Of a DNA stretch of 64,000 bases, positions 62,345 to 64,000 are shown piece after piece. Every line of letters starts with the position of its first letter. Position 1 is the first letter of the stretch. The notes under the pieces are model-generated. The model did no database searches. It worked only from the letters and a program-made list of their open reading frames with translations, and was not told the DNA's origin. Made by a program: the position numbers and the translations under genes. This stretch comes from Thermincola carboxydiphila (GTDB lineage: Bacteria > Bacillota > Thermincolia > Thermincolales > UBA2595): positions 59,671-123,670 of the forward strand of contig JAENZX010000006.1 in the NCBI GenBank assembly GCA_016841045.1. Direction: 5' to 3'.

Positions 62345-62452
62345 CTACCTAAATAAAATTAGTAACTTTTTCCGTTACCAATTAATTATATACGAAAGCA
62401 CTGTTATTGAACATGGTGTTCTAGATTAAACTAACTGGAAAGGTTGTTATTG

Positions 62453-63517
62453 ATGTTTGAAAAAGTAATAAAAAAAATGGTTAAGACACTGGATGATGGG
62501 CGAGTTGAGCTTTTTTCCGCGGCTGAAAATGTAAGGAATGAATGTCCAGGATTGAACGAAGAATTGAAGGAAATCGACAGAAAGATTTTAAATCTAGATA
62601 ATCTGATTGCTGAATCGGGCGCAATGAATCGTTCTGGGAAAAGCCGCTATATGGTACAGCGTAATCGATTGCTGGGGAAAAAAACGAAAGTGGAAGAAAA
62701 ACTCTATAGCTTTCAGTCAACTATTGAAAAAGCAGAAAATATGGTTTCGCGAATTGGGATGGTTATGGATTTCTTAAGTGGTGACTATAACGATTTGAAT
62801 CTTAGGTTTGAAAACCTACAGCAAAGACAACAATTGAGCCTGCAAATTATTAGAGCTCAGGAAGAGGAGCGGAAAAGAATGGCCCGGGATATTCACGATG
62901 GTCCTGCTCAGTCAATGGCTAATGTTGTCTTTAGAATTGAATTCTGTGAAAAGTTGTTGGATATTGAGCCTGACAGAATTCGTGAAGAATTGAGGGAGCT
63001 AAAGGAAGTTATAAAAGATAATCTACAGGATGTCCGAAAGATTATTTTTGATCTAAGACCAATGGCTCTTGATGACCTCGGTTTAGCTCCCGCGATAAAA
63101 AGATATGTAGATAACTTTAGAGAAAGCAGCGGTCTAAAAGTAAATTTTCATTTTTTTGGACAAGAATGCAGGTTGGAACCGGCGCTTGAAATTGTTGTTT
63201 TCAGATTAATTCAGGAGTGTCTTAACAATATAGTTAAGCATGCTGAGGCTGATGAAGTAACTTTAACACTTAAGATTAAGCCTGATTTCATTACGGTTGT
63301 TGTTGAGGATAATGGAAAAGGCTTTGACTTGTCCAGGCACTCTCTGGAAGGATTTAATAATCACTTTGGTCTTATTAGTATGGATGAAAGGGCTTCTCTT
63401 TTGGGTGGTGAAATGAAGATAAAAACAGAGGAAGGCAAGGGAACAAAAGTATCTTTTCGGCTTCCGGTAAAACAACAATCCAAGGCTATAAAAATAGACC
63501 AAATTAAAAATTCCTAA
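62453..63517 (+). CDS. degS: DegS-type sensor histidine kinase (HisKA_3), cytoplasmic
   Basis: 354 residues from ATG 62453 (GGAAAGG 9 bases upstream; a TTG at 62444 is adjacent to the RBS and unlikely). No membrane segment. N-terminal coiled-coil sensor region (about 1-130), RAQEEERKRMARDIHDGPAQ with phospho-accepting His148, FDLRPMALDDLGLAPAIKRY, then an HATPase_c domain: ECLNNIVKHAEADEVTLTLK (N box), VVEDNGKGFDLSRHS (G1) and GEGKGTKVSFRLPVK-like end (EEGKGTKV). This is the DegS form, which normally phosphorylates a DegU/NarL-type regulator; none is adjacent. The next gene downstream is a pilin-like start behind riboswitches. Confidence 0.9.
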   Translation: MFEKVIKKMVKTLDDGRVELFSAAENVRNECPGLNEELKEIDRKILNLDNLIAESGAMNRSGKSRYMVQRNRLLGKKTKVEEKLYSFQSTIEKAENMVSRIGMVMDFLSGDYNDLNLRFENLQQRQQLSLQIIRAQEEERKRMARDIHDGPAQSMANVVFRIEFCEKLLDIEPDRIREELRELKEVIKDNLQDVRKIIFDLRPMALDDLGLAPAIKRYVDNFRESSGLKVNFHFFGQECRLEPALEIVVFRLIQECLNNIVKHAEADEVTLTLKIKPDFITVVVEDNGKGFDLSRHSLEGFNNHFGLISMDERASLLGGEMKIKTEEGKGTKVSFRLPVKQQSKAIKIDQIKNS

Positions 63518-63548
63518 ATAAAAATTTGGAGAAACTTTAAAAAATATG

Positions 63549-63577
63549 TAGACAGGCTATGTAAAATGTGGTAATAT
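63549..63577 (+). promoter_or_regulatory. Promoter of the riboswitch-pilin unit
   Basis: TAGACA (63549-63554), 17-base spacer, TAATAT (63572-63577), with TG-n directly before the -10 (extended -10). Expected start near 63584, just before the first aptamer. Confidence 0.65.
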
Positions 63578-63608
63578 GAAACTGCAAAAACGGAATAACA
63601 ATATGTTA

Positions 63609-63699
63609 TATCCCGATAAAGGCAAAATCACTGAAAAGTGATGACGCAAAGCCATGGGTCTAAGGTGATAAATCACTATGATTGCCAGGTTGCCGAAGA
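63609..63699 (+). promoter_or_regulatory. Cyclic-di-GMP-I (GEMM-I) riboswitch aptamer 1
   Basis: Class I c-di-GMP motifs in order: GGCAAA (63621-63626), hairpin ATCACT-GAAA-AGTGAT (63627-63642, GNRA tetraloop), GACGCAAAGCCATGGGTCTAA (63643 on; conserved GACGCAAAGCC core), a variable arm GTGA-TAAA-TCAC (63665-63676) with the receptor-side sequence, then ATGATTGCCAGGTTGCCG (63678-63695). The fit to the GEMM-I consensus is close. An expression platform with terminator and anti-terminator follows. Confidence 0.93.
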
Positions 63700-63700
63700 T

Positions 63701-63758
63701 AGAAGTTGTTTTTTAACTTCTCTTACAGGCATTCCTGCAAGGGAAGTTTTTTATTTTT
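63701..63758 (+). terminator. Riboswitch 1 expression platform: terminator with competing anti-terminator
   Basis: Terminator AACTTCTCTT (63715-63724) / AAGGGAAGTT (63739-63748), 10 pairs with one G-T, inner CAGG/CCTG stem, then a T-rich run to 63758. AGAAGTT (63701-63707) just after the aptamer can pair with AACTTCT (63715-63721) and would block the terminator. Which state ligand favours cannot be told from sequence. Confidence 0.85.
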
Positions 63759-63765
63759 AAAACCT

Positions 63766-63867
63766 GACAACGAAAAAGGCAAAACCGTTGAAAAGCGGTG
63801 ACGCAAAGCTATGGGTCCTAACTAGTGAGTAGTGTTACCCACTAAAGGATCGCCAGGCCGCCGAATT
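63766..63867 (+). promoter_or_regulatory. Cyclic-di-GMP-I riboswitch aptamer 2
   Basis: Same order as aptamer 1: GGCAAA (63778-63783), hairpin ACCGTT-GAAA-AGCGGT, GACGCAAAGCTATGGGTCC core, a longer variable arm (63818-63848), then GATCGCCAGGCCGCCGAA. Core elements start 157 bases after those of aptamer 1. Variable stems differ from copy 1 but keep pairing, a sign of selection. Confidence 0.92.
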
Positions 63868-63869
63868 GA

Positions 63870-63920
63870 GAAGTTTGATACCGCAAGCTCTTCCTTCGGC
63901 GTGGGAAGAGCTTTTTGTTT
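63870..63920 (+). terminator. Riboswitch 2 expression platform terminator
   Basis: AAGCTCTTCC (63885-63894) / GGAAGAGCTT (63904-63913), a 10-bp stem, then TTTTTGTTT. GAAG-TTTG (63870-63877) can pair with CAAG-CTCTTC as a possible anti-terminator, weaker than in copy 1. Confidence 0.82.
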
Positions 63921-63967
63921 CCTTAAAATGTGGAGCGGTAATAAAGTTCTGAAAGGAGGTGAGAAGG

Positions 63968-64000
63968 ATGATGTCAATGATTAAAAATCTGTGGAAAGAA
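63968..64000 (+). CDS. Start of a probable Flp-type (type IVb) pilin gene, cut by window end
   Basis: Eleven codons visible (MMSMIKNLWKE) with AAAGGAGGTGA 5 bases upstream, the strongest RBS in the window. Short basic start followed by W-K-E matches the leader of Flp pilins (typically a basic leader, then G-x-x-x-x-E-Y). The gene is directly under two c-di-GMP riboswitches, which fits pili and adhesion. Only the first residues are present, so the identity is inferred. Confidence 0.5.
   Translation, partial: MMSMIKNLWKE

Follow-up and report, generated by a model that had tools for sequence, protein, structure and literature searches.

The stretch of DNA analyzed here (the window, 64,000 nucleotides, C48:59671-123670) belongs to the 4.16 Mb draft genome of Thermincola carboxydiphila and ends shortly after the start of flp1, a gene encoding an Flp pilin. 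The leader of this gene contains two aptamers of the c-di-GMP-I class in series, each followed by a terminator of its own (Table 1). Covariance-model searches (cmscan) assigned copy 1 to RF01051 (E = 1.4e-17) and copy 2 to RF03167 (E = 4.7e-14), and copy 2 was also significant when scored against RF01051 (E = 1.1e-12). An earlier note on this DNA had read the pair as two complete GEMM-I aptamers, a reading borne out by RF01051 scores that both lie far above the gathering cut-off of 35 bits (that of RF03167 is 59 bits); it had also located both terminators correctly. Among the 21 class I aptamers of the genome, these two form the only close tandem. The same note had placed the leader behind a single extended -10 promoter. 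A matching site with a TG 5′ of the -10 element is indeed present, but chance alone would yield about 1.3 such matches in a region of this size, and as the leader promoter it is suggestive only. Directly 5′ of the leader lies a gene for a DegS-like histidine kinase (window 62444-63548). In most relatives, a gene for a receiver-domain regulator stands between the kinase gene and the pilus locus; it is absent here.

Table 1. Features of the tandem leader in window coordinates (position in L022 = window position - 61329)
Feature	Position	Strand	Evidence and remarks
Promoter-like site TAGACA-17-TAATAT, TG 5′ of -10 (candidate)	63549-63577	+	9/12 consensus matches
Copy 1, c-di-GMP-I aptamer	63611-63697	+	RF01051 94.2 bits; G20, A47, C92 by sequence
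Copy 1 P1 5′ strand, interrupted pairing with 63694-63701	63609-63615	+	Sequence and folding
Copy 1 antiterminator hairpin AGAAGTT/AACTTCT	63701-63721	+	Free-state extension; pairs to aptamer 3′ strand
Terminator T1 and U-rich tail	63715-63758	+	Stem 63715-63748, -15.8 kcal/mol
Copy 2, c-di-GMP-I aptamer, P3 arm of TAGTG repeats	63769-63866	+	RF03167 68.3 bits, RF01051 66.7 bits
Copy 2 antiterminator, CGCCGAA 63859-63865 with TTCGGCG 63895-63901, plus inner stem	63859-63901	+	
Terminator T2 and tail	63885-63922	+	Stem 63885-63913, -16.1 kcal/mol
flp1 ribosome binding site AGGAGG, ATG 8 nt downstream	63954-63959	+	Sequence
flp1 start (Flp pilin), continuing past the window as L022:2639-2803	63968-64000	+	PF04964 44.3 bits

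Past the window edge, flp1 goes on to encode MMSMIKNLWKEERGQGMTEYGLILAL..., and its product carries the GxxxxEY signature, in agreement with the earlier proposal of a pilin-like gene downstream and with the match to the Pfam family Flp_Fap. The gene heads a complete Tad locus with the order flp1-flp2-GT2-third aptamer-tadV-tadE-tadG-cpaB-cpaE-cpaF-tadB-tadC-DUF192-diguanylate cyclase. Pfam matches and synteny together identified the Flp pilin, prepilin peptidase, TadE/G, CpaB, CpaE, CpaF, TadB, and TadC; the GT2 gene is GT2-like, and CpaE carries a receiver domain. The locus closes with the gene for a MASE9-GAF-GGDEF protein, in which the GGEEF motif is intact and an Asp is found in GHRGGD, a sequence that would be expected of an enzyme making c-di-GMP. 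The third aptamer (L022:3615-3707) lies 5′ of tadV and overlaps the 3′ end of the GT2-like reading frame. It lacks a terminator; a long perfect hairpin comes after it, just 5′ of the tadV ribosome binding site (region L022:3615-3833). Its position corresponds to that of the second-flp leader of relatives, with the flp gene missing here.

Both terminators compete with an upstream pairing. In copy 1, AGAAGTT (63701-63707) is complementary to AACTTCT (63715-63721), which overlaps the 5′ arm of T1; the mutually exclusive antiterminator proposed for this copy in the earlier note is therefore present, and its pairing is stronger than that of permuted or shuffled controls. In copy 2, CGCCGAA from the aptamer pairs with TTCGGCG, and the inner stem masks the 5′ arm of T2. 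In the free full-length RNA, the calculated terminator probability was 0.47 for T1 and 0.14 for T2. Permuting the terminator base pairs gave mean probabilities of 0.96 and 0.89, respectively, with values as low as the native ones in 0/400 and 7/400 permutations, and shuffling the linker gave 0.97 and 0.93 (1/400 and 5/400). The free-state antiterminators of both copies are thus predicted to be stronger than chance (0-7/400 permutations).

The direction of switching, on which the earlier note was silent, was deduced from folding and from which strands are shared. Both antiterminators use the aptamer strand and neither terminator does, as in the Cd1 riboswitch, so the two copies are probably OFF switches of Cd1 topology, through which c-di-GMP would repress Tad pili; in this modeling, the ligand-bound state was imposed and not predicted. 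It counts against the OFF explanation that the AGAAGTT/AACTTCT hairpin of copy 1 hardly overlaps the aptamer proper. An OFF rule extended to all 21 aptamers of the genome was rejected, as most of those outside the Tad locus behaved the same as controls.

The usual direction of c-di-GMP signaling is to favor attachment, which repression of an adhesive pilus opposes. This lends some weight to the alternative that one or both copies are ON switches, in which c-di-GMP blocks termination and turns the Tad pili on, and so does the homologous c-GAMP switch before the pilM pilus genes of Geobacter, which is ON (PMC9262584). Such a direction nevertheless appears unlikely for the present leader, where it is the antiterminators and not the terminators that draw on the aptamer strand, and where removal of that strand brought the terminator probability to 0.96 in both copies.

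The OFF reading was compared with the leaders of related Tad loci. A scan of named genomes found the closest Flp pilins among Thermincola-type Firmicutes; the order is represented by 10 genomes in the set, and a class-level sample gave the same 10. A strong flp match was obtained in nine of these (the present genome included), with the Tad locus syntenic to the contig ends. Every flp gene of the eight relatives is directly preceded by a single c-di-GMP-I aptamer and terminator. No doublet before flp was found in any of the eight, and this arrangement was seen only in the present genome. A further aptamer lies 5′ of the GT2 gene in G008 and in the three Thermincola-type genomes. Blocking of the terminator 5′ arm by upstream sequence exceeded the control mean in all 14 of the relatives' flp leaders, none being individually significant. 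In several relatives the terminator prevails at equilibrium also when no ligand is bound, so that the OFF direction there would rely on folding kinetics. Outside this group, a class I aptamer of Salirhabdus euzebyi (Bacillaceae; L033:2927-3018) heads a Tad locus (DUF192, flp, flp, tadV, tadE), and its TTACCGAAAG is able to pair with CTTTCGGTAA of the terminator region, an OFF-type pairing. Predicted class I control of Tad loci thus extends beyond this genome and is probably of the OFF type.

The two copies are identical at 57 of 75 core positions. All three Tad copies of this genome group with the Tad aptamers of relatives and not with the other aptamers of the genome (support 90/83), and copy 2 is placed, weakly, with the first-flp leader type of the relatives (91/42). 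A recent duplication or an assembly artifact is unlikely in view of this identity and the weak first-flp grouping of copy 2; more likely than a fresh duplication is a rearrangement that brought two Tad-family leaders next to each other, although the data are thin. A rival reading is that one copy alone is the working gate and that the other, a remnant of Tad-locus rearrangement, adds little. The modest identity of the copies is compatible with this, a single switch per flp gene suffices in relatives, and the third aptamer, having lost its terminator and flp gene, illustrates that decay does occur. We nonetheless consider a lone working gate quite improbable, as each copy retains the pocket bases and a terminator, along with an antiterminator of more than chance strength.

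The ligand pocket was inspected at three positions, G20, A47, and C92, which we take to be the ligand-contacting bases in the numbering of the Vc2 structure. Position 20, the unpaired first G of GGCAAA in the Rfam structure line, is G in both copies; A47 (GACGCAAAGC) and C92, the first C of CCGAA, are likewise canonical by sequence, as are G20 and C92 of the third aptamer. Neither copy has the A at position 20 that marks c-AMP-GMP riboswitches. With both pockets canonical, copies 1 and 2 should bind the same ligand, which we infer to be c-di-GMP. Assignment of copy 2 to the c-di-GMP-I-GGC variant, which we understand from its consensus and name to have a G where an A would otherwise follow GACGC, was discarded, as copy 2 has A (GACGCAAAGC) where the consensus has G. 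The earlier suggestion that the doublet might act as a logic gate accordingly finds no support: a two-input gate built from aptamers with different ligands is very improbable, since the slightly better fit of copy 2 to RF03167 (68.3 vs 66.7 bits) is not diagnostic when 18 of the 21 genome aptamers, copy 1 among them, pass that cut-off and copy 2 lacks the consensus G, and two pockets canonical for one ligand leave no second input, so the doublet can only deepen and steepen a single response.

Several further observations concern class I aptamers in this genome. An A20 is limited to L005 (C36) and the truncated L021 (C55). The latter (G000:C55:64346-64406) is missing most of P3 and runs straight into a hairpin and T tract; by its sequence it may be a decayed or unusual variant. 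Part of the copy 2 P3 arm (window 63823-63834, TAGTGAGTAGTG) belongs to a dispersed TAGTGNN heptad repeat. A 19-base TAGTGNN pattern had 37 matches in the genome, whereas the reversed control had none or nearly none, and the repeat gives rise to very long P3 arms in aptamers L018 (C30 near 16007) and L019 (C24 near 6976).

Position 20 also varies among the relatives. In G004, G003, and G005, the Tad aptamer before the GT2 gene (L062:2238-2323, L063:2324-2409, and L064:2004-2089, respectively) has A20 (AATAGCAAA) and is the sole A20 aptamer by pattern in each genome, and the nearby flp aptamer has G20. A second GGDEF protein is encoded 3′ of the Tad cyclase in four loci (L062:14255-15406, L063:14354-15496, L064:14009-15151, and L069:13600-14763). 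Its GGEEF motif is intact, and it has Asn (GHLTGN or GHLMGN) at the site where c-di-GMP cyclases have a base-recognizing Asp. Orthologues were found only in G003, G004, G005, and G009, all of which have A20 aptamers; G000 (the present genome) and G008 have A20 aptamers without this protein. The second GGDEF protein could possibly make another cyclic dinucleotide.

Taken together, we regard it as fairly probable that the Tad/Flp leader carries a doublet of complete c-di-GMP-I riboswitches, both acting as terminating OFF switches in series. At low c-di-GMP, the 3′ strand of each aptamer would be taken into its antiterminator, and polymerase would continue past the two terminators to transcribe flp1-flp2 and possibly the tad genes. 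With c-di-GMP bound, P1 and the 3′ strand would be held, the antiterminator blocked, and the terminator left to halt transcription. If the two gates respond independently to one ligand, read-through would multiply, so that less leaks through, repression sets in at a lower threshold, and the turn-off is steeper. Two identical ideal gates, calculated as 1/(1+x)^2, have a 90-10% range of about 40-fold as against 81-fold, and the leak is squared; deeper and steeper repression would be expected from two OFF gates on this model. Should the genes from tadV to the cyclase be cotranscribed with the pilin genes, negative feedback would arise, with c-di-GMP limiting its own synthesis. More tentatively, this scheme may extend to Thermincola-like Firmicutes as a group: c-di-GMP would repress the Tad pilus through one Cd1-type OFF switch per flp gene, a cyclase from the same locus would close a negative feedback loop, and in the present genome the gate would have been doubled for a deeper, steeper turn-off.

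The predicted OFF control of an adhesive pilus, together with a cyclase gene at the end of the locus, is in our view the most interesting part of this system. A search of the open-access literature yielded no report of a c-di-GMP riboswitch controlling a Tad pilus locus. The relatives, where each flp gene has a single switch, and the present genome, with its doublet, form a natural series in which the sharpening attributed to tandem switches could be tested with orthologous leaders.

The tandem c-di-GMP-I riboswitch is itself a known architecture, and the locus is a new example of it and not a new kind. Such tandems were the commonest doublets in one survey, which lists 347 doublets and 12 triplets (PMC9481103), and a c-di-GMP-I triplet is cited from Bacillus thuringiensis. 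The present locus resembles the surveyed tandems in that two complete class I switches for the same ligand class follow one another, each with a terminator, and differs from them in its target, the Tad/Flp pilus, and in its predicted OFF direction. Tandem c-di-GMP-I riboswitches of Bacillota are enriched before COG1305 transglutaminase genes (PMC12452182), an arrangement with the same architecture but a different target gene; the two class I doublets checked in relatives (L070:1500-2739; L072:2677-3834 and upstream) are of this type, both preceding transglutaminase genes. The pilM c-GAMP riboswitch of Geobacter metallireducens shares with the locus a homologous aptamer placed before pilus genes; it differs in its ligand, its ON direction, its single copy, and a terminator (T+A+H) that uses the aptamer strand (PMC9262584). 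Closest in mechanism is Cd1 of Clostridioides difficile, experimentally shown to be OFF, with a T+H terminator and an A+T antiterminator (PMC9262584). There, as here, the antiterminator takes the aptamer-stabilizing strand and the terminator does not, but Cd1 is a single switch before flagellar genes, whereas the present locus sets a doublet before pili.
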